From the NCBI RefSeq assembly GCF_037076465.1, contig NZ_AP028908.1:4402001-4466000 (forward strand): a stretch of 64,000 bases of DNA, given 5' to 3'. Of the stretch, positions 5,950 to 61,128 are shown in pieces. The stretch is from Pectobacterium araliae (GTDB lineage Bacteria > Pseudomonadota > Gammaproteobacteria > Enterobacterales > Enterobacteriaceae). Made by a program: the position numbers and the translations under genes. The notes beneath the pieces are model-generated. The model ran no database searches, was not told the DNA's origin, and worked only from the letters and a program-made list of their open reading frames with translations. Position 1 is the first letter of the stretch. Each line of letters opens with the position of its first letter.

Positions 5950-8900
5950 ACTGGCTGCGCCTCCTCTGGTTATTGTTGATTATGGCACCGCAGACCTACG
6001 GCGCAGAAACCGTATCACCAGAGCAGTTCCTGATGGAGCAGGTGCGTTTGGGAGAAGCCAGCAATAAAGACGATCTCGTGCGCCAGTCGCTCTATCGACT
6101 GGAACTGATCGACCCGGATAATCCCGCTGTTATCGCCGCCAGATTACGGCTCGTATTGCGTCAAGGCGATCAGGTTCAGGCTCGCCAACAGTTGGAAAAA
6201 TTGAAGGCGGTGGCACCCGACTCCGCACTCTACCGCCAGTCAGCAATAACACTGTCGCTGACGCAAGAAGAGCCGCGTAAACAATTGCAGCAGGCGCGCT
6301 TGTTATCCACCGCCGGGCGCTATGCGGAAGCCAAAGTGCAGTACGACGCACTCTTTCACGGCGATCCACCCACGCTCGATCTTGCCGTGGAGTATTGGCG
6401 GCTGGTTTCACGTTTGCCAAACCAGCAAGCTCTCGCCATTAAGCAACTGGAAACGTTGGATCAGGTCTACCCTAATAATGTGCCGTTACGCATGGCGCTG
6501 GCGCGTTTGTTGTTTAGCCAGAATCGTAACGAACAAGCCTATCCCCTACTGAAGCAGCTTTCTAACGATCCCGTCGGACGTGGACAGGCGGCTTCGCTGT
6601 GGCTGGAAATTATTGGCCGGATGCTGGTCACGCCACAAAGTGTGGCTGAATTTAACCGTTTTCTGACCGTGTTTAATGAAGGTGAGCAGGCAGAAACCGC
6701 ACGTAAAGAGCTCAACCGCCAGCAGGGAATGATGGCCGATCCCACCTATCAGGCGCGTCTTCGCGGTCTGGCACAGGTTGAAAGCGGCGGCGGCAATAGC
6801 GCCACGCTTAACGAGTTAAATAAAGCGCTGGTCGCCACACCAAAGGATCCTGATCTGATCGGGGCAATTGGTTTGGTTTACCTGCGTGCAGGCGATCGGG
6901 TAAAAGCACTGACGCAGTTCCAGAAAGCATTACAGGCGGACGTGAACCGCCTGAACAGCGGCAAATGGGAAGGGCTCATCCAAAGCACACAGTATTGGAT
7001 CACCATCGCGGAAGGCGACAATGCGCTGAAGGCCAACAATCTAGCGCTGGCGCGGCAGAAATATCAGCAGGCCCGCCAGATGGACAGCACCAACGCCTAT
7101 GCGCTGATTGGTCTGGGCGACGTAGCCGTTGCCAGCCAAAACGATACCGCCGCACAACAACTCTATCAGCAGGCTTTACAGCTCGAGCCCAACAACGATA
7201 CTGTCCTACGCGATCTGGTTGGTACTTATCAACGGCAGTCGCCGGAAAAAGCGCTCGCTTACCTCAACAGCCTGCCGCGCAGCCAGCAGAATACCATGCG
7301 GGAAACACTTGCGGCACTGCAACTCGACACCTTGAAACAGCAGGCGGATCAGTTAGTGGAACAGCAGCAATGGGCGCAGGCGGAGGAGAAATACCGTCAG
7401 GCGAACCAGCAAGACCCAAATGACGTCTGGCTGGCCTATCACTATGCTCAGGTACTGCGTCAGCAAGGGAAAACGCAGCAGGCGGACAGCGTGGTACAAC
7501 GTGCGACTGCTGTGCCACCCGCCAGTGCGGAGAAGAACTACGTTTACTCGCTTTACCTGTCGTCGACCAATCGTGATGAGCAAGCACTCGCTCACCTGAA
7601 CACGCTACCTACTGCGCAATGGAGCGATGACATGCGCGATTTATCCCAGCGTCTGACAATGCAGACCCGGCTTGCGAAAGCGGAAGTGATGCGCGATTCA
7701 GGTAACGAACCCGCTGCCATTGCATTCCTGCGTCAGCAACCGACAGACACCCGTATCGATCTGCTGTTGGCAGACTGGGCGCTGGCACGGGGTGAATACG
7801 CGACGGCGCTGACGGAATATCAACGTATCCGCACACGAGAACCACAGAACCCTGACGCACAACTGGGCGAGATCGATGCGTTTATCGCACAGAGTCGGCA
7901 AGATGAGGCGCGCCAACGTCTGAACCAACGCCCAGTGCAGGCGATGGATACCCTCAACGGCCAGCGGCGCGTCGCCAATGCCTGGCAAGCGGTAGGGAAT
8001 CCACAAAAATCGGCCGCGCTTTTCCATCAGCTAAAAATCGACGCCCAGAAAGAACCGATCGGCCAGAGCAAAGCATTGGTCTACCGCGATGCAGCACGGG
8101 TTGAACAACAGCAGTCTCAACCGGAGCAGGCAAAGCAGGACTATAAACAGGCCATGGTCGCCAGTGGCATTACCTCCGCGCTGCCACAAAGCAACGACGA
8201 CTACACTCGACTGACGCGTAATAACCGCAGCGACGACTGGCTGCAACGCAGCATCCGCGCCGATGCCGCAGACCTGTATCGCAAACAGGATATTACCGTC
8301 ACTCTCGATCATGATTACTCACGTTCGAGCGGCACCGGGGGAATTTCCGACCTGAGCGCCCACAACACCCTGTTGCAGCTAGATATGCCACTGTACGACG
8401 GTAGTGCCTTCTTCCGTACCGACACGGTGCAGATGAACGCCGGTTCCTTCTCTACGGACAGCAACGGCGTTTACCGGGAAACCTTCGGCACCTGCGCCAC
8501 GCGGGACTGTTTCGACGGAAAATCACAGAAAGCCACCGGCACCAGCGTCGCCGCAGGCTGGAAAAACGACCGTTGGTCAGCGGATATCGGCACCACGCCG
8601 CTCGGCTTTGACGTGGTCGATGTCGTCGGCGGTGCCAGCTACAGCGGCGACTGGCGGCAAATCGGCTGGACGGCGACCGCCTCACGCCGCCCGATTTCCA
8701 GCTCATTATTGGCATTCGGCGGCACCAAAGATCCGGGCACTGGCATCACCTGGGGCGGCGTGCGCGCCACAGGCGTCAGCCTCGGGCTGAGCTACGATCG
8801 CGGCGAAGCACACGGCGTCTGGAGCGATTTCAGCGTCCATCAGATTTCCGGTAAAAACGTGGCCGATAACGATCGCGCTCGTGCGATGGCGGGCTACTAC

Positions 8901-47302: not shown

Positions 47303-48232
47303 TTACTGTTCGTCGATTTTTACTATCTCTTCCTTCACCTTCCACTTGCCGCCCACCAGCTCGCGGGTTGTAGCGACCATCGCCTTCTTCTCTTCGGAGT
47401 AGGCTTCCGTGGTTTCGACAATCAGGACAGGCTTATTATTGGCTATCTGATAGGTAGACCATTGGTGCCAGCAGCAGCCGCTTTTGGTAAACGTCGTGAT
47501 GGTCTTACTTTTCTCATCAATCTCGAACAGGCCGAGGTTGGAGCTGGCTAACTCGGTCAGCGGCGCATTCTGGGTAAACTGCTGCTTTTCCACATCAAAC
47601 AGGTACACATCGTAAGACGGCCCGCCGTAAGCGCCGTTGTTGCCATTACGCAGCATGATATCCGCGTGGTGATCGAAGTTAGCGTCATCAATCACCAGCC
47701 CGCTGTTGTTCTCACCGTAGACCTCGACCAGATTCGCGGTGACTTCGCCCTTACTGTTCAGCTCGATGAACATATTTTCCATGTTGATACGCTGGAACAG
47801 GTCACCGCGCCCTTTCTTAAAGATATCCAGCGTGCCGGGGCCTTCGCAGGTTGAGTAAGAAGCGTCGAGGTTGCACGTCGCCACGCTGAGAACGAAGTCC
47901 CACTGGCCTGATGCCTGCGTAATCAGGGAAATATTCTCACTGCCGGAAAGCGCCTGAATACGGGAAACCATCTCATTCCCCAGACAAACGTCATCCTTAC
48001 AGCGGTCACGCTCGGCTAGCCACGTGCGCTGTTCCTGACGCGCTTGCGCTTTGTCTTCCTTTTTCACATAACCCTGATAGGCCTTGTTTAATACCGCATC
48101 GAGCTGCTGCAAACGGCTGCTGGCACAAATCATTTTCTCGGTGTCTGTGCTGGCCTTGCTGCAATCCATCGCCCAGACGGACGAGGTGAAGAAAAACAGC
48201 AGGGATGAAACGGCCAGAGATAAATAACGCAT
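47303..48232 (-). CDS. Periplasmic LprI/DUF1311-domain protein
   Basis: The 309-residue product has a signal peptide (about residues 1-21, ending VWA). An N-terminal LprI/DUF1311 domain follows (MDCSKASTDTEKMICAS, then LDAVLNKAYQGY and RTWLAERDRC), a family that includes lysozyme inhibitors. The C-terminal part (about 120-309) resembles XAC2610-type beta repeats (NFDHHADIMLRNGNNGAYGGPSY split around DHHAD). A periplasmic envelope-protection role is possible but not shown. It follows the lipid cluster on the same strand after 60 bases but is unrelated to it in content. Confidence 0.8.
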   Translation of the reverse strand: MRYLSLAVSSLLFFFTSSVWAMDCSKASTDTEKMICASSRLQQLDAVLNKAYQGYVKKEDKAQARQEQRTWLAERDRCKDDVCLGNEMVSRIQALSGSENISLITQASGQWDFVLSVATCNLDASYSTCEGPGTLDIFKKGRGDLFQRINMENMFIELNSKGEVTANLVEVYGENNSGLVIDDANFDHHADIMLRNGNNGAYGGPSYDVYLFDVEKQQFTQNAPLTELASSNLGLFEIDEKSKTITTFTKSGCCWHQWSTYQIANNKPVLIVETTEAYSEEKKAMVATTRELVGGKWKVKEEIVKIDEQ

Positions 48233-48292: not shown

Positions 48293-49393
48293 CTATTTCT
48301 TGCTGCCCTTTCCCATCTTTTTAAGAAAGCGCTGTTGTTCAACTAAAATCGCTTTCAACGTAATGCATTGATAATCAATGCCGTAACGCGGGGCAACCTC
48401 CGCAATAATTTTCGACAGCGCAGGGTAGTGCCGATGATTCCAGTTGGGGAAAATATGGTGGGTCAGGTGCATATTGAGCTGCCCCAACCAGTAGCCAAGC
48501 CAGGCGGGCCGAGTCGTCCAGTCCACCGTGGTGGAAAAGACGTGCTGATAGCGGCCATGCCTGAATAAGCCATCTTCCGGTGCCTGATAGAACGTCCCCT
48601 TTGCCCAGTGCGACCCCAGAATCAGGACGACAAAAATCAGCGATGACAGCATTTGGCTCAGCAGATAAACCAGCAACAGCGCACCGGCGCTGACGGGTGT
48701 CGGCGACAGCAGACAATAGGGGATCGCCAATGCCAGCAGAGCATGCAGCGCTTTTGATAACAGGAAAATACCCCAGCCCTTACCGCCTTGAAGCGTCATA
48801 TTACGCGTCACTTGCGTTTTCCCCGCACGATCGAGCCAGTCAAAAAACCAGATGATGCAGGGGAAGGTCAGCGACGCCACCATCGGCCAGTAGTAGCGCT
48901 GGGCGCGCATAAAAAAGCGAAACCGGTGGTAGGGTGATTGCCGCAAGACGCCGTTCTCTTCGATATCCAGATCGTAGTGCTGCACGTTGACGTGCGCATG
49001 ATGAAAAATCACATGCCGCACTCGCCAGCAGTCGGAATCCATGCCGAGCGGAATACTCACCACAATATTGAGCAGGCGATTCGCCCACGGCCGTCGGAAA
49101 AAGACGTTATGCGAGGCGTCATGCACCACGTTCACCGCCAGAAACATGGCGGTAAAAATAAAGCCAAAGTAACAACCAGCAAACCCCCACAGCGTCGTCT
49201 GCCAGAGGCTGAAACCATAAAACGTCAGACACAGCGCCACCAGAAACAGCATCTTGCCGATAAACCCAGCGTTGGCAAAACGGTGATCGCCCGCTGCTGC
49301 CAGATAGTCATTCGCGGCCTTCATCAGCGCCCGATGCAATGCCAGATCGCGACCTTGTTCATAGCGTAGCGGCTTCAGCGGTGCGAGCATCAT
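48293..49393 (-). CDS. Membrane fatty-acid desaturase (second copy)
   Basis: A 366-residue di-iron membrane enzyme with the three His boxes: HDASHN (about residue 91), HHAHVNVQH (about 130) and HLTHH...HRHYP (about 305). Four or more membrane helices. Resembles the neighbouring desaturase throughout and probably arose by duplication. Last gene of an eight-gene minus-strand unit; it starts 17 bases after the first desaturase ends. The substrate is probably an acyl chain built or carried by the cluster's own enzymes. Confidence 0.87.
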   Translation of the reverse strand: MMLAPLKPLRYEQGRDLALHRALMKAANDYLAAAGDHRFANAGFIGKMLFLVALCLTFYGFSLWQTTLWGFAGCYFGFIFTAMFLAVNVVHDASHNVFFRRPWANRLLNIVVSIPLGMDSDCWRVRHVIFHHAHVNVQHYDLDIEENGVLRQSPYHRFRFFMRAQRYYWPMVASLTFPCIIWFFDWLDRAGKTQVTRNMTLQGGKGWGIFLLSKALHALLALAIPYCLLSPTPVSAGALLLVYLLSQMLSSLIFVVLILGSHWAKGTFYQAPEDGLFRHGRYQHVFSTTVDWTTRPAWLGYWLGQLNMHLTHHIFPNWNHRHYPALSKIIAEVAPRYGIDYQCITLKAILVEQQRFLKKMGKGSKK

Positions 49394-49410
49394 TCTTCCT
49401 CTGAGCCATG

Positions 49411-50523
49411 TTACACGGTACGCCGATCGTTCCCCTCACCCATCGATTTTAAAAACCGACGCTGGCTAGCCAGTAGCTCACGATAGGTAATGCAGCGATA
49501 GTTCATGCCATGCTCGGCGGCCACGCGCCGTAAAATACTGGCTAGCGCAGGGTAATGGCGATGATGCCAGCCAGGGAAAAGATGGTGTGTCAGGTGCAGG
49601 TTTAACCCTCCCGTCCAGTGCTCAACCCAGCGCGGCGTCGGCAGCCAGTCACAGGCGGTCGCAAAGTTGTGCTGATACCAGCCTTGAGGCATCGCCTCTG
49701 TATCGGTAACAGCATAGAACTCAGCTTCAGCCCAGTGCGTACCCAGCAGTAAAAACACCACCAGCAACGAGGCCAGCATCTGACCCAGCAAATAGCTTAA
49801 CAGCACGATTCCCGGGCTAATGCCGTGTGCCGCCCCTACCATGATGGGAATAACCAATAACAACAGGATATGGCCGATTTTACTGGCGATAAAAATCATC
49901 CATCCACGGTAGCCTAACTGTACTGAACGAGCATTGACGGGAGTTTTACCCAAGCGATCGGCCCAATCAAAAATCCAGGCGATATAAGGGAGTGAGAACG
50001 CGGCCACCAGCGGCCAGTAAAGATGCTGATAACGCATGTAGGAACGGTGGCGCTGAAAAGGCGTTTGGCGGAAAACCCCATTCTCTTCCGTATCCAGATC
50101 GTAATGTTCCACATTCGGATAAAGATGGTGGAAGTCCACATGGCGCAAACGCCAGTAATCGGGATCGATGCCTAATGGCAACGTGACGATGCGCCCGACC
50201 ACGCGGTTCAGTGTCTGGTTGCGGAAAAAGGTATTATGGGAGGCGTCATGATTCACGATGATATTCAATAACATCGACAGCATGATGAAAGAGAAATAGC
50301 TCAGGAAGAACGCCCATGCCGCCTGCTGCACTAAACAAAGGGCATAACAGGCGATGCAGCATAAAAAGAGTAATCCGGCCTTAATAAACTGCCCGCTATC
50401 GGCAAAGCGATGGTTGTGATTAGCGCGGAGATAAGCCGACGTTTCCCGCTGTAATGCCCGATGGAAAGCCTGTTCACCCTTCGCAGGATACAGTTTGGCG
50501 GGAAGCACACTAGACATTTTCAT
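49411..50523 (-). CDS. Membrane fatty-acid desaturase (first copy)
   Basis: A 370-residue di-iron desaturase. His boxes: NHDASHN (about residue 92), RHVDFHHLYPNVEHYD (about 128) and LHLTHH...HHRHYP (about 310). Its start overlaps the preceding hydroxylase gene by 14 bases, so co-translation is likely. Two paralogous desaturases in series suggest two double bonds, or two positions, in the final product. Confidence 0.88.
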   Translation of the reverse strand: MKMSSVLPAKLYPAKGEQAFHRALQRETSAYLRANHNHRFADSGQFIKAGLLFLCCIACYALCLVQQAAWAFFLSYFSFIMLSMLLNIIVNHDASHNTFFRNQTLNRVVGRIVTLPLGIDPDYWRLRHVDFHHLYPNVEHYDLDTEENGVFRQTPFQRHRSYMRYQHLYWPLVAAFSLPYIAWIFDWADRLGKTPVNARSVQLGYRGWMIFIASKIGHILLLLVIPIMVGAAHGISPGIVLLSYLLGQMLASLLVVFLLLGTHWAEAEFYAVTDTEAMPQGWYQHNFATACDWLPTPRWVEHWTGGLNLHLTHHLFPGWHHRHYPALASILRRVAAEHGMNYRCITYRELLASQRRFLKSMGEGNDRRTV

Positions 50524-51637
50524 GCTCCTCAGTCAGGGGACGCCGACCCCAGCCGACCGCCATCGCCAGCCCGTGCAGCGCCAGCATCAGCATCGCCATC
50601 TTCCAGTAGAGCGCTTCCCAGCCCAGATAGACAAGAAACACGGCAGGGAATAGCAGCCCCACCAGCAGCCAGATGTAAACACCCCAGCGTCGTCCTTCGG
50701 AAATGCCGCCCAGCGCAACCGCACCCGCCACCAGCAATAGGAAGAGCGCCGCCTGCGACAGATCGGCGGAATCATAGCCGTAGCCATACAGGTAGACGTA
50801 ACCCACCACCAGCGCAAACAGCAGCATCGCCCCAGCGATCAACGCTATCGGCGTACAGTGAAATGTCGCCTGCCGTCGTGTACGGCGCACCGACAGTTTC
50901 AGGTACTGCATAAAAGGGAGGTTACTGGCCCAAAACGGATTGTTTGATGGCGTGTCTTTGCCTGCGCCGTAGCGGAAAGGCGTATCGGGCAGTTGTGGGC
51001 AAAAGCTGCCAAACAGTTTGTCCCAAAAAATGAAAGTGCCACCGAAGTTCTTATCAGCGTACGCACGGTCATTCACGTGGTGTACGCGATGGTGTGCTGG
51101 CGTCACCAGCACCTTTTCCAGCCAGCCCAGTTTAGGCGTCATGGCATTATGGTTAAACAGTTGGACACTGTAATGCAGGATGGACACGGTGACGAACACA
51201 TACAGCGGAACGCCGAGCAGCGCCAGAATCAGGAAGAACGGAATCGAGGTCAGCGAGGAGTACCACGAGTTACGCACGCCCAGCGACAGATTGAAATGTT
51301 CACCCTGATGATGCACCACGTGCACCGCCCAGAGCACACCAAAGGTATGGTGCAGGCGATGTAGCCAATAAAAGCCGAAATCCCAGGCAAGTATCGCGAA
51401 CAGCCACATTAGCACCGGCGGCCACGTTTCCACCCAGCCAAAACTGAAATGTGCCGCGACATAGCCGTAGCAAAAAATTTCCACGCTGCGAAAAAGCCAC
51501 AGCATGATATGCCCTGAATTCAGGTTGAACACCACGTCATGCCAGTTCACTTTCTCGCGCTGCATCCACTGCAAAATTAGCGCTTCGCCAATCACCACAA
51601 CCAGCATGAGAACTATCGGTAATGCCAAATCGATCAT
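50510..51637 (-). CDS. Sterol-desaturase/fatty-acid-hydroxylase family enzyme
   Basis: Start chosen at 51637 (MIDLALPIV), with AGGA 8 bases upstream, giving 375 residues; the frame extends to 51679. Membrane di-iron oxygenase with HRLHH, HVVHH and HHRVHH boxes in the first half and the family signature NFGG. A second block of membrane helices (about 260-370) follows. Likely introduces a hydroxyl or double bond into a long-chain lipid. Fifth to sixth in the operon, overlapping the following desaturase gene. Confidence 0.85.
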   Translation of the reverse strand: MIDLALPIVLMLVVVIGEALILQWMQREKVNWHDVVFNLNSGHIMLWLFRSVEIFCYGYVAAHFSFGWVETWPPVLMWLFAILAWDFGFYWLHRLHHTFGVLWAVHVVHHQGEHFNLSLGVRNSWYSSLTSIPFFLILALLGVPLYVFVTVSILHYSVQLFNHNAMTPKLGWLEKVLVTPAHHRVHHVNDRAYADKNFGGTFIFWDKLFGSFCPQLPDTPFRYGAGKDTPSNNPFWASNLPFMQYLKLSVRRTRRQATFHCTPIALIAGAMLLFALVVGYVYLYGYGYDSADLSQAALFLLLVAGAVALGGISEGRRWGVYIWLLVGLLFPAVFLVYLGWEALYWKMAMLMLALHGLAMAVGWGRRPLTEEHENV

Positions 51638-51647
51638 GATGTCATTC

Positions 51648-52298
51648 CTAATAGCGCTTATCGTTAGGCAACGGAGCACGAGGGGAAATGGCTTTCACCA
51701 CCTCTCGGCTGTGTAGAAAAATCCATCCGGTGATGCCCGCCAGCATCGCGCCAGTCACCAGATCGATGAACAGGTGACGGCGCAGTTGCAGGATGGAAAA
51801 GGCTATCGCAACGCCCCAGAGAAGATACAAGCCGGTTTTCACCTTGTGCTGGCCGTCACTCATCACCCATACCGCCAGCACCGTTAACGCAATATGCAAC
51901 GACGGCAGGCAATTCTGTGGCGAGTCGATAAGCAGCAAAAGCTGTAGCACACGCGTGGAAAAATCGTCCCCAATGACCTGCGGATACACCATCGTGGTCG
52001 GAAAAGTCAGGTACACCGCGCCTGCGATCAACGCGGTGAGTTGCGTTGCCCGCCGCAGCCCTGCAAGACGCGACATTGGGCAGGATAAATAGGACAGCGG
52101 CACGATGATGAAAAAGGAGAGATACAGCCAGATAGCCGAAGCGCTAAAGGGAATCCACTCATCAACAAGCGACGTCGGCAGCACCGCTCCCTGCCCCTGA
52201 AACTGTGCACTCAGTTGATACACCACCCCGACCGATCCCCAGCCGAAGAGCAGTGCTTTCAGCCGCAATAGCAGCGTGCGTTGAGGAAATCGCATCAT
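51648..52298 (-). CDS. PAP2-family membrane phosphatase
   Basis: A 216-residue membrane protein with about six helices. Phosphatase motifs: CLPSLH (catalytic-type SxxH equivalent, about residue 130) and RRHLFID with His and Asp (about 178). The overall form is like inositol-phosphoceramide-synthase/PAP2 proteins that hydrolyse or transfer lipid phosphates. The start overlaps the ligase stop by four bases. In this operon it may dephosphorylate or exchange a head group on the product lipid. Confidence 0.82.
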   Translation of the reverse strand: MMRFPQRTLLLRLKALLFGWGSVGVVYQLSAQFQGQGAVLPTSLVDEWIPFSASAIWLYLSFFIIVPLSYLSCPMSRLAGLRRATQLTALIAGAVYLTFPTTMVYPQVIGDDFSTRVLQLLLLIDSPQNCLPSLHIALTVLAVWVMSDGQHKVKTGLYLLWGVAIAFSILQLRRHLFIDLVTGAMLAGITGWIFLHSREVVKAISPRAPLPNDKRY

Positions 52299-53581
52299 GT
52301 TTCCTCCTTCAAGCGGGTAATCCGTCTGCGTTTTTGCGTAAATTCCGGTGCGATCTCACCCGCGCTTAACTGCCACCGTAGCCGCGGTGCATCAATGCCC
52401 TGCAACGCAAATTGCTGCACCAGACTGTCCCGACAGACTTCCAGCTCCGGCAGACTACACGCGGCGGATAAATGCAGCGTCGTTTCTCCCTGTTGTACCA
52501 GCCGATAATCTGCATTCAGCGGCAATGCATTGGCAATCACCCGGCTACAGAGATCGGCAAACACAGTCTGAGTTTCACCGCAGTTGTCCGGCAGTCGCAG
52601 GCTGTCATCACTGCGCCCTTCAATGCGGGCTATCGCCATCGTCACGCGGCCACACGAACAGGGTTCCCGCTGTTTGACCAGCACATCATCCAGCCGATAG
52701 CGCACAATTGGCTGCGTGCTGCGAGTGAAATCGGTAATAACGGGCGTAAAGCGTTCGTCATCCAGCCACTGCGGCTCAATGTGAATAAATTCTTCGTTGA
52801 GGTGTAGCGTACCGTGTTCACAGGTCGATGCCAGAAAGCCTTCCGTTGCCTGATACACTTCCCCTACTTGTCCGAAGACCTGCTGCAACAGCTGCTTATC
52901 CTGCGGCTCCAACACCTCTGCCACGGAAATCACCTTTTTGGCCGACAGCCGCAATTCACCACGCTGTACCGCCAGCGCCAGCTCGCGCAGCACCTGTGCA
53001 GGGGCAACGATAATCGACGGTGACCACCCTTCCAGTCGCGCAAAATGGCCGGAAAATGGCGCAAAGAGATCGTAAAACGACAGGCTGAGCCAGCGGTTAT
53101 CGACGCTGTGATACAGGTTGTTATCCGCCCGCAGAAACAGCGCTACCCGTTCACCGGCACGTAAACCGTCCGGTAGCATTTTCGCCAGCATGCCTCCAGC
53201 CCAAATCTGCTGTTCGCGCGGGCTGACGACAAACAGACCGCGCTGACCAGACGTACCGGACGACAGCCCGACGCTAAACCCGTTCACATTCGGCGTGAAG
53301 TCGCGATCCGCTTCGCTGCGGCGCGCGCAGGCAAGCAGGTCATCCTTCTTAAGCCCGGCGGTGTTCATCCGATCGAATTCGGCCATCATTACGGCTTTAT
53401 CCATCGTCGGCCACGACGTTATAGGAAGCTGGCAGTAAGGGCGAAAATAGGGACTACGCGCCAGCACCCGTCGCGCGAAGCGGGCGAGCTGATTCTGCTG
53501 ATGGCGTTCAAGCGCCTGACGAGTGGTAAAACTCAGGCGTCTGGCGCGGAAATAGTGCCAGATCGTCATCAGCGGAATCAT
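52295..53581 (-). CDS. Adenylate-forming enzyme (PaaK/F390-synthetase-like)
   Basis: A 428-residue member of the ANL group related to phenylacetate-CoA ligase and coenzyme F390 synthetase-like proteins. The nucleotide-binding loop is GLSSGTSGQRG (about residue 108); EVYQATEGFLA and the RYRLDDVL segment are further family features. Presumably activates an acid as AMP ester for transfer to a CoA, carrier or alcohol. The start overlaps the metallo-hydrolase stop by four bases. There is no carrier-protein gene in the cluster. Confidence 0.83.
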   Translation of the reverse strand: MIPLMTIWHYFRARRLSFTTRQALERHQQNQLARFARRVLARSPYFRPYCQLPITSWPTMDKAVMMAEFDRMNTAGLKKDDLLACARRSEADRDFTPNVNGFSVGLSSGTSGQRGLFVVSPREQQIWAGGMLAKMLPDGLRAGERVALFLRADNNLYHSVDNRWLSLSFYDLFAPFSGHFARLEGWSPSIIVAPAQVLRELALAVQRGELRLSAKKVISVAEVLEPQDKQLLQQVFGQVGEVYQATEGFLASTCEHGTLHLNEEFIHIEPQWLDDERFTPVITDFTRSTQPIVRYRLDDVLVKQREPCSCGRVTMAIARIEGRSDDSLRLPDNCGETQTVFADLCSRVIANALPLNADYRLVQQGETTLHLSAACSLPELEVCRDSLVQQFALQGIDAPRLRWQLSAGEIAPEFTQKRRRITRLKEET

Positions 53582-54384
53582 AGGTCACCCTCGTGGCACA
53601 GACGAATCTCGACCTGTCCGTTCAGGTGCAACTGGTGCAGCTGATCCAGCGTGTGGTAATAGGCTTGTGGATCGTCCATCACCAGATTCGCCAACCGCGA
53701 CGGTCCGCGACCTTCCCGATAGCTGTGCGGCGACCAGGCGGCATCACTTGCCAGCAGCACCCAGCCATTTTCGGTCAGCACAAACGCGCCGAGGTGTCCG
53801 ACTGCGTGGCCGGGCAACGGCACCAGCACGATCTCTTTATCGCTACCGGGCAGCGCATAGCCTTGCGTAAACGGTGCCAGCTCGGCAGGCAGATCGGTAA
53901 GCGGGAAGTTTTCGACAAACTGAAGCGCCTGCTCAAAATGCTCAGGGATCAGCGCGGGCACAAACGCCCGCTTCAACGCGGCAAAACCGCGCAGACTCCG
54001 CGTCTGCTGCCAGCCCAGCGCAGAACAGATAAACGGCACGGAGGGGAAATCCCGCAGCCCCGCGATATGGTCGCCGTGGAAATGGGAGATGATCAGGCCG
54101 TCGATATCAGCAGGCTGAATGCCCTGCGCGTATAGCTGGTGAATCAGCGCGTCTTTCGTTTCGAAATGCACCGGTGTCATTCTGCGGTATAGCTGAAACA
54201 GGCCGGAACGCGTGGCATCGGTAAAATGCTGGGCATAGCCGGTATCCCACAGCCAGCGCTTGCCCTGACTTTCCAGCATCCAGACTCGCGCCGGGAAACG
54301 GCACACTTTCCATCCCGCACCACGCAGCGCCATACAACCCGGATGCAGGCAGTATCCTACTTCAAACGTCGAAATATTAGCCAT
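53578..54384 (-). CDS. Metallo-beta-lactamase-fold hydrolase
   Basis: The ATG at 54384 (MANISTFEVG) is preferred over TTG at 54408; the product is about 268 residues. HFHGDH gives the metal-binding HxHxDH motif (about residue 103), with a further His in PGHAVGH and Asp in LLASDAAW. This layout is shared with N-acyl-homoserine-lactone hydrolases (AiiA type) and with thioesterase-like members. Its place inside the lipid operon argues for a thioester, lactone or ester substrate of that pathway; an effect on AHLs is possible but unproven. Overlaps the reductase gene by 8 bases. Confidence 0.82.
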   Translation of the reverse strand: MANISTFEVGYCLHPGCMALRGAGWKVCRFPARVWMLESQGKRWLWDTGYAQHFTDATRSGLFQLYRRMTPVHFETKDALIHQLYAQGIQPADIDGLIISHFHGDHIAGLRDFPSVPFICSALGWQQTRSLRGFAALKRAFVPALIPEHFEQALQFVENFPLTDLPAELAPFTQGYALPGSDKEIVLVPLPGHAVGHLGAFVLTENGWVLLASDAAWSPHSYREGRGPSRLANLVMDDPQAYYHTLDQLHQLHLNGQVEIRLCHEGDL

Positions 54385-55405
54385 GTCCGTCAGTACTCCG
54401 CTGCGCAAGGTGTGTTTTGAACCAGCTACCGGTTAATTCGATGCCCTGCTGGAGGGAGAAACGCGGCTGATAGCCCAGCTCGTGCTGCGCTTTTTCGGCG
54501 CTGAGCGTCATATCAAAATTCACCGCTCCCGCGCTGTAGCGCGTCAGCAGCGGCTCTTTGCGGCTAAACCACGAGAACAATTCCATACCACCGGCCACCG
54601 TATGCAGCAACGGATACGGCACTGCCTTAACGCGATAATTCATGCCCAACTGACCAACCAGCAGTTGCTGGAGCATGTCTGCAAGGCGTGCGGGTTCATG
54701 ATTAGTGATGTTATAGGCCGAGCCAGAAACCAACCCCGGGCGCTGGCTGGAAAGCGCCATCGCCTCCACCACGTTGCCGACAAACGTCAGATCCAGTAGC
54801 ACCTCGCCACCACGCGGGAGCCGCAGCACGCCGCCACCCACCGCGATCTGCTCCAGAACACGCGGCAGAATCACGCGGTCATGTGGGCCGAACAAACCAC
54901 GCGGACGCAGGATCACATAAGTGGTTTGCGGGTAGCGTGACGCCAGCGCCTGAAGCCGCTCTTCCGCCAGAAATTTGGTCTGCGCATAGTGATTGGCAAA
55001 GCGCGCCGCGCGGTAGCTTTCATCAATATTTAGGTGGTGTTGATAATCAAAGTAAATCGCGGGCGTGGAGATGTGCACAAAACGCGGGATCCCCAACTGA
55101 CCCGCGGCTTCAGCCAGTCGCGCCGTTACCTTGGTATTATTCTGGTAAAAATCATCATATTGACCCCACGGTGAGGATTTTGCGGCACAGTGCCAGACCA
55201 CGTCACAACCTGCCATCAGCGTTCGAAACTGCTCTACCGAGGCTGCGACCAAATCAATACAGGCGAACTGCGCCCCCAGCGCTTCCAGCTGTTGTCCCGC
55301 CGTGCGATCGCGCCCGCAGGCCAGTACCTGATGCCCAGCGTGAAACAGCCATTCCACCGCGTTACGCCCCAGCCCACTGGTTGCGCCCGTGACAAAGACC
55401 CTCAT
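54377..55405 (-). CDS. NAD(P)-dependent epimerase/3-beta-HSD-type reductase
   Basis: A 342-residue extended short-chain dehydrogenase. Rossmann motif GATSGLG at residues 7-13, catalytic Tyr and Lys in YAQTK (about residue 143-147), and the RPRGLFGPHD segment typical of 3-beta-hydroxysteroid dehydrogenase-like proteins. OleD of bacterial olefin pathways, which reduces a beta-keto acid, belongs to the same group and is likewise partnered with a KAS III-like enzyme. Overlaps the KAS gene by four bases. Confidence 0.85.
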   Translation of the reverse strand: MRVFVTGATSGLGRNAVEWLFHAGHQVLACGRDRTAGQQLEALGAQFACIDLVAASVEQFRTLMAGCDVVWHCAAKSSPWGQYDDFYQNNTKVTARLAEAAGQLGIPRFVHISTPAIYFDYQHHLNIDESYRAARFANHYAQTKFLAEERLQALASRYPQTTYVILRPRGLFGPHDRVILPRVLEQIAVGGGVLRLPRGGEVLLDLTFVGNVVEAMALSSQRPGLVSGSAYNITNHEPARLADMLQQLLVGQLGMNYRVKAVPYPLLHTVAGGMELFSWFSRKEPLLTRYSAGAVNFDMTLSAEKAQHELGYQPRFSLQQGIELTGSWFKTHLAQRSTDGHG

Positions 55406-56415
55406 GGAATCAGTACCATCCCGCCCAGCGTCAACCCGGCAGCCGTACCGACTAGCATCGCGGGTTCGCCTTCAGGCAGGCGCTGCGTCACGATGGCATG
55501 GTGCAACGCCGTCGGAATCGAGGCCGCGACCTGATTACCGTGATAGCGGTAAATATCAATCAGTCTTTCTGTCGGGATCGCCAGCCGCTTGCGCATATGC
55601 TCCAGCGACAGGTGACTGGCCTGATGCGGAACCACTGCCGCCATCTGCTCTAGAGAATAGCCGCTGGCATCCAGCAACCGTTGCAGATAGCCCTCAATCA
55701 AGGCAGAAGCCTGCCTGAACAGCCGTTTTCCCTGCATATGGAACAGAAAATCATGCAGTTCCATCCCCGCACGCGGGTTACGCAAGGTGCCGCCTGCGCG
55801 GATCTGGCACAACTCATTACCCTTCGGATAGGTTTCCAGCAGACACGCCGCAATCCCACTGCGACCGTCACCACGTTCAACAATGGCGCACGCGGCACCA
55901 TCGCCAAAAATCAGCGACGACTCTTCATCGTCCCAGTCAATACCGCGTGAGGCCAGCTCGGTAGAAACAATGGCAATGCGCCGATAAGCGCTGGTATTCA
56001 GCAAGCCTGCTGCCACCTGAAGCGCGGAAATAAAGCTGACGCAGCTACTATTAATATCAAAACAGGCCGTTCCTTTTGGCAGAGACGACGCTTTTAATAA
56101 ATGGCTGGCACTATAAGGCAGAGCCTGAATCGGGATCGCGGAAGCAAATAGCAGCAGATCGATTGACGCGGGTGGAATAACTCCCCGCACCAGCGCGTCA
56201 TTCAACGCCGCCACACCAAGCTCAGCCTGGCTGGCATGATTATCGGCATGGTGACGATAGATAATGCCTGAACGGCTTTCGACATAACCCGTGGGCTTAT
56301 TGAGCCGCACATCTAATTCGGCCGAGGTCACCCGCTGCGCAGGAAGTGCGCTGCCGGTAGCAATAATCTTGAGAGGAACCAATCCCTTAGTGAATACATG
56401 ACTTTGCGTCTTCAA
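55402..56415 (-). CDS. KAS III (FabH-like) ketoacyl synthase
   Basis: First gene of the operon. I favour the TTG at 56415 because AAGGA lies 6 bases upstream; the frame allows TTG at 56421. About 337 residues. The thiolase-fold catalytic triad is visible: Cys in NSSCVSF (about residue 125), His in VPHQAS, and Asn in YHGNQVAAS. C-terminal GTAAGLTLGG is typical. It should condense an acyl thioester with a malonyl or second acyl unit. It is not the chromosomal fabH by context (no plsX/fabD), so it is pathway-specific. Confidence 0.88.
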   Translation of the reverse strand: MKTQSHVFTKGLVPLKIIATGSALPAQRVTSAELDVRLNKPTGYVESRSGIIYRHHADNHASQAELGVAALNDALVRGVIPPASIDLLLFASAIPIQALPYSASHLLKASSLPKGTACFDINSSCVSFISALQVAAGLLNTSAYRRIAIVSTELASRGIDWDDEESSLIFGDGAACAIVERGDGRSGIAACLLETYPKGNELCQIRAGGTLRNPRAGMELHDFLFHMQGKRLFRQASALIEGYLQRLLDASGYSLEQMAAVVPHQASHLSLEHMRKRLAIPTERLIDIYRYHGNQVAASIPTALHHAIVTQRLPEGEPAMLVGTAAGLTLGGMVLIP

Positions 56416-56616
56416 TATCAATCCTTTCCAGATTTATTATCGTTTTAACTGTACTGATAAGACTATCGTGCACAGTATTTATTCATTCTGCTGTTAAGAA
56501 TAACGAAATCACCACGAATTGAAATCTTAAGCTGTGCGATCGCACTATCCCTTCCCAATACTTTTTCGCTATTCTCTGTTCATTCACGATGCTGAATTAG
56601 GCCAGAAGTTCTACTT

Positions 56617-58579: not shown

Positions 58580-59317
58580 ATGTCGCAATTATTCTACAAC
58601 AATGAAACTATAAGCAGGATAATAAAAAGTCAATTCGACATAGCATTAAGTCGCTATGGCGACATCAAATATGCTTACATGGTGTTAAATAAAAAGAAGC
58701 CAACAGAAATTCTGATCATTTCCAATCACCATGACGAGTGGCGAGAGATATACCGAGCAAATAACTATCAACACATTGATCCTGTGGTCATTGCAGCCCT
58801 TAATAAAATCACCCCTTTCCCTTGGGACGAAGATTTACTGGTCAGTACACAACTGAAGATGTCAAAGATATTTAACTTATCCAGAGAGCATAACATCACC
58901 AACGGTTACACTTTCGTTCTTCATGACCACAGTAACAATCTGGTTATGCTATCAATCATGATTGATGAATCAAATGTGAATAACATAGAGGACGTAATCG
59001 AAAGTAATAAAGATAAGCTACAAATGACGTTGATGAATATTCATGCAGAAACCATCTCTCTTTACAGAGAGATGATTAGAAACAAAGAAGATGAAAGATC
59101 AAATGATAAAGATATTTTTTCTCAACGGGAAAATGAAATTCTTTATTGGGCCAGTATGGGTAAAACCTATCAGGAGATAGCACTGATACTAGATATTAAA
59201 ACAGGCACCGTTAAATTTCACATCGGCAATGTTGTGAAAAAACTTGGTGTATTAAATGCCAAACATGCAATCAGACTTGGCATCGAGCTACAGCTCATTC
59301 GACCGATACAGTCATAG
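58580..59317 (+). CDS. expR: LuxR-family quorum-sensing regulator ExpR
   Basis: A 245-residue AHL-responsive transcription factor. The N-terminal autoinducer domain (about 1-165) has the conserved ligand-pocket residues Trp54, Tyr58, Asp67-Pro68 and Trp82. The C-terminal GerE-type HTH (about 178-240) reads SQRENEIL...GKTYQEIA and KTGTVKFHIGNVVKKLG. In Pectobacterium, ExpR binds DNA without AHL, activates rsmA, and is released by AHL. It is convergent with expI and the 3' ends overlap by 23 bases, the arrangement known for expR/expI. Confidence 0.95.
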   Translation: MSQLFYNNETISRIIKSQFDIALSRYGDIKYAYMVLNKKKPTEILIISNHHDEWREIYRANNYQHIDPVVIAALNKITPFPWDEDLLVSTQLKMSKIFNLSREHNITNGYTFVLHDHSNNLVMLSIMIDESNVNNIEDVIESNKDKLQMTLMNIHAETISLYREMIRNKEDERSNDKDIFSQRENEILYWASMGKTYQEIALILDIKTGTVKFHIGNVVKKLGVLNAKHAIRLGIELQLIRPIQS

Positions 59318-59948
59318 GCTCGAAAGACAGTGGCCACTCTCGTAACTTACTTTCAACAAATTCTTTGTTGTGATTTATACGACGAACGAGTACATCTTGG
59401 CTTTCATTATCGACAGGTAAGAAAAGTAGATAAACCCTTTCCTGTTTTTCTGACATCCCCTGCTCAACAATCGAAATTTTCCAACCTGAACGCTTCAGTA
59501 TTGTGAGCATAGGGTGACTGACAATAGTGTAAACACCATCATATCCTTTACGCCTTGAGTAATTCACTGTTGCCAAAAAGAACATCGTACTAACGGGATA
59601 AGAATTTCCTAAAATAGTTTTTGACCGTGCTTTATCTACAAAAAACCGGCTCGACTCAATATATTTCCCGTCAGGAATATCTACTTTTTCAAAATAGGGA
59701 AAAAATGTTCCGGTAATCATATTAGGGTATTTCGTTTCAATTAACCGAGAGCTGCAAATAACCTGGTCATCCTCTACGCCGAAAAGATAAGTCGCATTAT
59801 CGTCATCATACTGATCGAACTCCATCCCGTTAATACATTTCACCGCCCAATTTAGCCTATCTTTGAACGTTTCTTTCCTAAGCGTAAACAATTCTTCCGA
59901 TTTTTTTTCCGACAGTAGTGTGTAACTTACATCGAATATTTCTAACAT
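59295..59948 (-). CDS. expI: N-acyl-homoserine lactone synthase ExpI
   Basis: LuxI-family enzyme (217 residues) making 3-oxo-acyl-homoserine lactones from SAM and acyl-ACP. Conserved residues: Arg24, Phe28, Trp34, Asp45, Asp48, Arg68, Glu98 and Arg101. Positions 69, 123 and 127, which I recall as chain-length determinants of Pectobacterium ExpI, are Leu, Phe and Thr; which class this indicates should be looked up. GGAGG lies 5 bases before the ATG. Overlaps expR by 23 bases tail to tail. An IS630 element begins 26 bases upstream of its start codon. Confidence 0.96.
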   Translation of the reverse strand: MLEIFDVSYTLLSEKKSEELFTLRKETFKDRLNWAVKCINGMEFDQYDDDNATYLFGVEDDQVICSSRLIETKYPNMITGTFFPYFEKVDIPDGKYIESSRFFVDKARSKTILGNSYPVSTMFFLATVNYSRRKGYDGVYTIVSHPMLTILKRSGWKISIVEQGMSEKQERVYLLFLPVDNESQDVLVRRINHNKEFVESKLREWPLSFEPMTVSVE

Positions 59949-59975: not shown

Positions 59976-61128
59976 AATAGCTTTCCGAAATAATAGATCA
60001 CTTGGGGGGGAACTCAGTCCAAGTTGAGCGATCTGATCAATCGCTGAATATCCCAAATCACCAACCGGACTGAGTCATGCCGATCATAACACCTATCCAA
60101 CCCGACGAGCGTCAATTGATGCAGAAAACCATGCAGACGACACGCGACAAGAACCATTATCGCAGGCTTGCCGCTCTACTAATGCTTGATGATGGCATCT
60201 CCGTTTCCGATGTGGCTAAACACCTTCAGGCTGCTCGTTCCACCGTCGGACGCTGGATAAACTGGTTTACCCAAAGTGGCGCCGAAGGACTGGAAAGCCG
60301 ACCCGCAGGACGACCGCCGAAATGGTCGCCAGAGCCTGTATTGCCGCTGCTATCTCATCTGGTTGATTACTCGCCACAGGATGTCGGATGGCTACGCTCG
60401 CGCTGGAGTCTGGAATTGCTGACCATGGAGATAAATGGTTTTTTCAACATTAATGCCTCACGAAGTACCCTGTATCGCTGGGTTAAGATGGCCGGTCTTG
60501 TCTGGCGTCGGGCTGCCCCCACACTGAAGCTCTCCGACCCAGATTACGATGAAAAAATGACCGCTATTCAGGCCGCGCTGGCTGTCAACAGTTCGGAACA
60601 TCCCGTGTTTTATCAGGATGAGGTTGATATTGCCCTCAACCCGAAAATCGGCGCTGACTGGAGCCAGAAAGGTAACCAAAAACGGATAGTGACGCCGGGC
60701 CAGAATCAGAAACATTATCTGGCTGGCGCACTGCACGCGGACACAGGAAAGGTGACCTATATAGGCGGAATAAAGAAGACATCAAAATTGTTTATAAATC
60801 TGTTGGTTAAACTGAAACGCACATACCGGCACGCCAGCATTATCACACTGATAGTAGATAACTACATCATTCATAAAAGTAAGGAAACCCAGCGCTGGCT
60901 GGCAGAGAATCCGAAGTTCAACCTGCTGTTTTTGCCGACTTACTCGCCCTGGCTGAACAGAATAGAAGGGCTCTGGCATAAGTTGCATGAAACGGTAACA
61001 CGAAATCATCACTGTCATTACATGTGGCAGTTATTGCAGAACGTAGCCCAGTTCATGGAGGCTGCTTCGCCTTTCCCTGGAAATGCACCGGGAAAGGCAA
61101 GGGTGTAGCAGTATTATGAAAAGCTATT
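59976..61128 (+). mobile_element. IS630-family insertion sequence, about 1153 bp
   Basis: Ends are inverted repeats beginning AATAGCTTT on the left and ending AAAGCTATT on the right, each flanked by TA (59974-59975 and 61129-61130), as expected for IS630/Tc1-type insertion at TA. It contains one intact transposase gene. The left end is 26 bases from the expI start. Confidence 0.88.
60077..61108 (+). CDS. IS630-family transposase
   Basis: A 343-residue DDE transposase. Two N-terminal HTH domains (SVSDVAKHLQAARSTVGRWI near 47 and a winged-helix type near 110-155), then the catalytic core: Asp in VFYQDEVDI (about 178), Asp in IVDNYIIHKS (about 262) and Glu in WLNRIEGLW (about 298). All three acidic residues present, so the copy is probably active. 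Points away from expI. Confidence 0.93.
   Translation: MPIITPIQPDERQLMQKTMQTTRDKNHYRRLAALLMLDDGISVSDVAKHLQAARSTVGRWINWFTQSGAEGLESRPAGRPPKWSPEPVLPLLSHLVDYSPQDVGWLRSRWSLELLTMEINGFFNINASRSTLYRWVKMAGLVWRRAAPTLKLSDPDYDEKMTAIQAALAVNSSEHPVFYQDEVDIALNPKIGADWSQKGNQKRIVTPGQNQKHYLAGALHADTGKVTYIGGIKKTSKLFINLLVKLKRTYRHASIITLIVDNYIIHKSKETQRWLAENPKFNLLFLPTYSPWLNRIEGLWHKLHETVTRNHHCHYMWQLLQNVAQFMEAASPFPGNAPGKARV

Follow-up and report, generated by a model that had tools for sequence, protein, structure and literature searches.

What would a compact run of eight apparent lipid-enzyme genes make, and do all eight belong to a single pathway? The question is raised by positions 48293-56415 of a 64,000-nucleotide stretch of Pectobacterium araliae (hereafter the window), where eight genes, named here A to H in order of transcription, lie on the minus strand. 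The window covers positions 4402001-4466000 of a single-contig 4.66-Mb genome, to which Pectobacterium is nearest in a genome scan. A preliminary description had treated the set as one eight-gene pathway unit. Comparisons across genomes instead resolve it into a portable four-gene core, A-D, and a clade-specific tail, E-H, that has apparently been lost or replaced elsewhere. We read the whole as a portable biosynthetic set for a non-standard membrane lipid, in which A-D would supply the core chemistry and E-H its modification, and we hold this reading with slightly less than even confidence. The cassette appears to be uncharacterised: a limited literature search, which tests absence from print only weakly, listed no publication on it, and two papers that it did list, PMC10991766 and PMC6371041, do not seem to concern this operon.

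Content, order and conservation of the cassette

The enzyme families proposed earlier for the eight minus-strand open reading frames were borne out by Pfam and NCBIfam scans. The core begins with A, a KAS III-type ketosynthase (55402-56415), followed by B, an extended short-chain dehydrogenase/reductase (SDR) that is OleD-like and of the 3-beta-hydroxysteroid dehydrogenase (3-beta-HSD) type (54377-55405); C, a dinuclear metallo-beta-lactamase (MBL)-fold hydrolase of the N-acyl-homoserine lactone (AHL) lactonase branch (53578-54384); and D, a PaaK/F390-like adenylate-forming enzyme of family TIGR02304 (52295-53581). The tail comprises E, a membrane phosphatase or phosphotransferase of the PAP2_3 family (51648-52298); F, a di-iron hydroxylase of the FA_hydroxylase/sterol-desaturase family (50510-51637, with an alternative GTG start at 51679); and two fatty acid desaturases, one of G type (G, 49411-50523) and one of H type (H, 48293-49393).

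Among 24 loci found by their D gene, 17 show by tblastn the complete set of eight in the order of the window (10 Pectobacterium, 3 Serratia, and one each from Rahnella, Enterobacteriaceae B14, a Dechloromonas metagenome-assembled genome and Erwinia), and six more keep that order minus one desaturase (five Pseudomonas and one Pectobacterium). The comparison of gene order across genomes that was proposed at the outset thus finds content and order retained in 23 of the 24 loci, the last of which, from Budvicia, shows B-D only. Ratios of nonsynonymous to synonymous substitution (dN/dS by NG86) are 0.039-0.129 between the window and P. aroidearum (L010), 0.035-0.251 between the window and P. versatile (L002) and 0.00-0.31 between the Escherichia coli strains clone D i2 and ST131, and no internal stops were seen in the partner genes checked for these comparisons. 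Given this recurrence and the low dN/dS between Pectobacterium species, the cassette is not a product of chance; it is confirmed as real and conserved. Its flanking genes vary among the genera inspected, which gives the cassette sharp edges.

The distribution of the cassette is patchy, not universal. Of 25 Pectobacterium genomes, including that of the window, 23 have gene A (E 1e-80 or better), and among 394 genomes of the order 22 have gene D (E 1e-50 or better). Matches above the TIGR02304 cut-off occur in 2 of 369 genomes in a sample of the class and in 7 of 398 in a sample of the phylum; at E 0.001 the class sample rises to 89 of 369 genomes, mostly through weak PaaK-type matches. A protein search with D gave 3,743 matches at E 0.001 among 7,996 candidates, and the best 120 of these 3,743 include relatives from Serratia marcescens, the Yersinia pseudotuberculosis complex and a Klebsiella. 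No Dickeya record appears among the 24 loci, in a scan that was pattern-based and in which Dickeya was not searched by name.

The gene layout agrees with the translationally coupled operon described earlier, including the end coordinate of gene A: its best start is the TTG at 56415, with AGGA six nucleotides upstream. For C the best start is the ATG at 54384, a choice that takes in the invariant M9-A10 of the hydrolase. The description of nearly all genes as overlapping by 4-14 bases holds for five of the seven junctions (A/B 4, B/C 8, C/D 4, D/E 4 and F/G 14 nucleotides), whereas G and H are separated by a 17-nucleotide gap and the E/F junction is either a 32-nucleotide overlap, if F starts at GTG 51679, or a 10-nucleotide gap, if it starts at ATG 51637. 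The latter start yields 375 amino acids; the annotated E. coli counterpart has 374. As the preliminary description also held, no carrier protein or transporter is encoded in the cassette, nor is a regulator, and no space is left between the genes for another. The operon diverges from glpM across an intergenic region (56416-56616) that presumably holds the operon promoter and is only partly conserved in 12 Pectobacterium sequences; alignment of these 12 upstream stretches revealed no clear conserved box or regulator site before gene A. At the other end, the LprI-family neighbour that follows the operon (47303-48232) was considered as a further member and set aside, since no match to it stands beside the cassette in L007, L009 or L011.

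A portable core and exchangeable tails

Members of the Gamma-, Beta- and Alphaproteobacteria, the Bacillota and the Fusobacteriota all have the A-D core. Twenty further stretches, chosen by their D gene, each contain A-D at 31-75% identity, but E, F and a desaturase occur in only nine of them, two of which repeat genomes of the 24-locus set. One of the 20 (L088) carries B in two pieces, split over two frames at 6182-7188, through either a frameshift or an error in the sequence. Between loci, the pairwise distances of the four core genes correlate with r values of 0.962-0.975 (38 loci kept of the 50 with all four genes, with species history uncontrolled), as for genes inherited together.

On a tree of concatenated A-D sequences, made by a quick method that returned long-branch warnings, the 23 loci with E-H need two label changes, and two core-only genomes of one genus (G542 and G651) nest within the E-H loci (support 93, not starred), a placement that would fit loss of the tail. 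Searches of these two genomes for a tail moved elsewhere covered F and G. No G match appeared in either genome, in a search that lacked a positive control, and F was without a match in G542 and had a single weak one in G651 (30%, E 1e-11). No close copy of F or G was found, and the whole tail is likely absent from both genomes.

Other genes stand beside A-D in other clusters. ATP-grasp proteins of one family (23-99% identity) do so in 10 loci (L081, L082, L083, L084, L086, L088, L096, Paenibacillus L103, Pontibacillus L104 and Paraburkholderia L109), and GNAT-like proteins, again of one family, in nine (L081, L082, L083, L084, L086, L096, L103, L109 and Rhizobium L108). A Rieske oxygenase accompanies the core in L085 and L088, DUF3419 in L085 and L108, and a divergent sulfotransferase in Ketogulonicigenium and Paracoccus. 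In Fusobacterium vincentii (L107, 3237-10180) the order is B-C-D-A, together with a GT21-type glycosyltransferase and an SDR. The L107 record is labelled a 'plasmid' of 2.1 Mb, a length that suggests a chromosome.

Even within the tail, the two desaturases are separable. G and H are about 48% identical, and a desaturase tree (38 of 60 rows) divides into two well-supported types, with all three Pseudomonas rows of G type and E. coli of H type only. Since Pseudomonas keeps only G and E. coli only H, the duplication looks old and each copy looks dispensable. One of the two is often absent, so the 'polyunsaturated' product proposed earlier is not general.

Two plasmid records should be mentioned separately. 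The Pseudomonas megaplasmid pBASL58 (L111, 1-9239) carries relatives of A, B, C and D in the same order with unrelated genes between them, and pMPPla107 (L106, 7968-9266) carries D alone within 8 kb on each side.

Enzymes and candidate product

The residue counts that follow exclude fragment rows (two for A, one for B, two for C, none for D and one each for E and F) and come from alignments in which some rows are near copies, L088 contributes no B row and F rows are missing for most Pectobacterium loci. The catalytic roles of these residues are assigned from family motifs.

Gene A belongs to the KAS III families PF08541/PF08545, and C127, H266 and N296 (numbered from TTG 56421) are invariant in 53 of 53 aligned rows. 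Its best NCBIfam match, the PRK07204 KAS III equivalog (NF005541), scores 319 bits, below the 402-bit cut-off; relatives of A score 333 in E. coli, 303 in Fusobacterium, 284 in Rhizobium and 425 in Paenibacillus, which alone exceeds it. The nearest solved chains are 4v2p (155 bits) and CorB (141 bits), which share the SCxSF active-site context with A in the alignments, and FabH enzymes score nearly as well. The chain 4v2p is MxnB; MxnB and CorB are stand-alone ketosynthases with pyrone activity, and both join two carrier-bound acyl chains. These ketosynthases serve alpha-pyrone antibiotics, whereas the cassette has no polyketide synthase. A predicted structure of A had a pLDDT of 59.0 and was not used.

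Gene B, an SDR (PF01370/PF01073), has Y140 and K144 invariant in 54 of 54 rows. The part of the earlier account that compared the cassette with Ole enzymes is sustained by B, whose best curated match is OleD, a 2-alkyl-3-oxoalkanoate reductase: models NF042422 and NF042423 match over the full length at 165 and 164 bits, although the 580-bit cut-off is not reached, and OleD is the best model for the B proteins of each of the three clusters compared (165, 154 and 241 bits). Among solved structures, the best relative of B is a sterol 4-carboxylate 3-dehydrogenase. Gene C (PF00753) has the lactonase-type MBL fold of AHL lactonases of the AiiA/GcL type, with a complete dinuclear metal site whose seven ligands (H109, H111, D113, H114, H201, D222 and H272, numbered from TTG 54408) are invariant in 54 of 54 rows. 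A PqsE-type thioesterase was not among the matches listed for C, which excludes nothing. Gene D passes the 251.9-bit cut-off of TIGR02304 ('F390 synthetase-related') with 577 bits, and K417, E247 and D299 are invariant in 57 of 57 rows. TIGR02304 is a family in name only, and membership of D implies no coenzyme F390 function.

The tail enzymes are likewise intact at the motif level. Gene E matches PAP2_3 at 30 bits (cut-off 27), with PSLH at 132-135 and R174, H175 and D179 of an RHxxxD motif invariant in 35 of 35 rows. Gene F matches FA_hydroxylase at 98 bits and keeps its histidine boxes in 25 of 25 rows. The two FA_desaturases score 94 and 119 bits, and three histidine boxes are invariant in all 60 desaturase rows of both types.

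Another known system shares parts with the cassette. Sterol C-4 demethylation pairs an FA_hydroxylase-type oxidase with a 3-beta-HSD-type decarboxylase or, in bacteria, the Rieske protein SdmA with SdmB. The solved relative of B and the family of F recall this pair, and the two Rieske proteins found beside other A-D cores best match SdmA, at 70 and 75 of 600 bits. However, these scores lie far below the cut-offs, and the KAS III, MBL and adenylating enzymes of the cassette have no place in that system.

Under the membrane-lipid reading, A would draw acyl groups from the cell's own pool of acyl carrier protein (ACP) and coenzyme A thioesters and join two acyl chains, or an acyl and a malonyl group, by a carbon-carbon bond to give a beta-keto acyl intermediate. 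C would release the free acid by hydrolysing its thioester or lactone, and B would reduce the beta-keto group to a beta-hydroxy acid, possibly alpha-branched, as OleD does; we propose this step for B because its best match belongs to a family that acts on beta-keto acids. D would then activate the carboxylate as an acyl adenylate and hand it to an acceptor. In the membrane, F may hydroxylate the product, G and H may add one or two double bonds, and E may remove or move a phosphate. We infer every substrate, the order of the steps and the end product. Several points weigh against this scheme. No substrate is evident for gene E, A could simply extend chains with malonyl units, and the lactonase fold of C hints at a lactone intermediate outside the proposed steps. 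In addition, the modifiers of the other clusters are assigned by the names of their families, and on their own most of the scanned GNAT-like proteins lack any Pfam match.

It is also conceivable, although we consider it unlikely, that the product is a secreted bioactive or signalling fatty acid (e.g. hydroxylated, polyunsaturated or acetylenic), such as an antimicrobial or an interspecies signal. The combination of an activating enzyme with a hydroxylase and paralogous desaturases resembles polyyne-type clusters, and polyyne and aryl polyene products are fatty-acid-derived and occur in Gammaproteobacteria, with desaturases in the polyyne clusters. A patchy occurrence (by gene D in the order sampled above, and in E. 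coli as counted below) would also suit such a compound. However, polyyne clusters place a fatty acyl-AMP ligase and an ACP beside their desaturases, and the cassette has neither of these, nor a ketosynthase/chain-length factor pair, exporter, resistance gene or regulator. One desaturase is missing in several lineages, and the presence of gene A in nearly all the Pectobacterium genomes surveyed better suits a lipid in steady use.

Somewhat more doubtful is a parallel to the Ole pathway, in which A and B would yield a 2-alkyl-3-hydroxy acid, D would stand in for OleC and close a beta-lactone, and C would stand in for OleB in hydrolysis or decarboxylation, leaving a beta-lactone or an olefin. The beta-lactone or ester suggested in the preliminary description is a possible end product. 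Four functional slots fit, since a KAS III, an OleD-like SDR, an AMP-forming enzyme and a hydrolase share one operon, and both the affinity of B to OleD and the lactonase fold of C are in keeping with this scheme. Straight membership of OleABCD was rejected, given the shortfall of B against the OleD cut-off and the lack of an OleC-type ligase and an OleB-type hydrolase; the earlier statement that OleB is absent and the ligase is of a different type is upheld. OleB is an alpha/beta hydrolase, and none of that type is encoded among the eight genes and two scanned neighbours, where the sole hydrolase is the MBL. OleC is a member of the PF00501 class, whereas D is PaaK-like and matches no Pfam family at E 0.01, and thus is not of that class. 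Gene A looks closer to FabH and PRK07204 than to OleA: solved OleA chains such as 3row match no part of it beyond residues 252-332 (E values of 2e-7 to 1e-5, none of the stretches passing by itself), and 4v2p, CorB and FabH match far better. Furthermore, the cassette has four extra membrane genes, and if the product were a hydrocarbon, neither E nor the modifiers of the other clusters would have a handle to act on.

A role of C as an AHL lactonase for the expI/expR system about 2 kb away (58580-59948), with the other genes handling the signal's acyl chains, is suggested by the AiiA/GcL-type fold of C but is very improbable and was rejected, because the same cassette content is kept at unrelated sites (C stays with A, B and D at the E. 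coli narI-tRNA-Tyr site, in four Serratia-type stretches beside nar genes and in Bacillota, with no AHL synthase annotated in those of the stretches that are annotated, and among L002-L025 the window's ExpI is matched only in Pectobacterium loci) and C falls far below the cut-offs of all five quorum-quenching lactonase models (AiiA 45/375, AidB 45/360, AttM 41/390, AhlS 32/475 and YtnP 19/425 bits).

The form in E. coli and the wider meaning

In E. coli, a seven-gene form (A-F plus an H-type desaturase) matches 672 of 5,426 complete genomes, 671 of them with at least 80% coverage, in a collection weighted towards sequenced isolates. Of 673 places recorded for the cassette, 671 are on chromosomes, and the record for strain KE48 assigns it to a 'plasmid' with the same chromosomal neighbourhood. 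In both chromosomes inspected, those of clone D i2 and the O25b:H4-ST131 strain 4993 (L112 and L113, 3001-9882 in each), the complete seven-gene form is flanked by narI and tRNA-Tyr. K-12 MG1655 shares these flanks and lacks the cassette, and the idea of a remnant at its narI-tyrV site was dropped because the sequence runs from narI to tRNA-Tyr without any cassette match. In L012, L013, L018 (and L094, a copy of it) and L095, too, the cassette is directly preceded upstream by relatives of NarH and NarI (81-88%), which indicates that this site is shared across genera.

The expI/expR region of the window may have a history of its own. ExpI is 92-97% identical to its counterparts in L006, L011 and L021, and 73-74% identical to those of the seven other Pectobacterium loci that show ExpI, including L002, whose cassette genes, unlike ExpI, are 90-99% identical to those of the window. 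The expR/expI pair therefore differs in allele class from the pairs of the closest relatives of the cassette, and this disparity suggests allele replacement at expI/expR. Just past expI, the open reading frame at 60077-61108 looks like an IS630-type transposase.

A broader proposal, which we consider possible but rather improbable, is that A-D constitute an undescribed lipid-core pathway, present in at least three phyla, that builds a common beta-hydroxy (perhaps alpha-branched) anchor to which exchangeable genes would add head-groups or chain modifications, and that roughly every eighth complete genome of E. coli encodes an uncatalogued membrane lipid. The anchor would be hydroxylated, desaturated and acted on by the PAP2 enzyme in enterobacteria and Pseudomonas; elsewhere it may receive an amide (ATP-grasp and GNAT-like proteins), an aminocarboxypropyl group (DUF3419, by its likeness to BtaA) or a sugar (GT21). 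To our knowledge, such a lipid is missing from the lipid lists of E. coli and Pectobacterium. If true, this fraction of complete E. coli, an ST131 strain included, has the genes for such a lipid, as do nearly all Pectobacterium; the lipid could account for lineage-specific membrane or surface traits, and the A-D core would provide a new phylum-spanning signature of a lipid pathway for genome mining.

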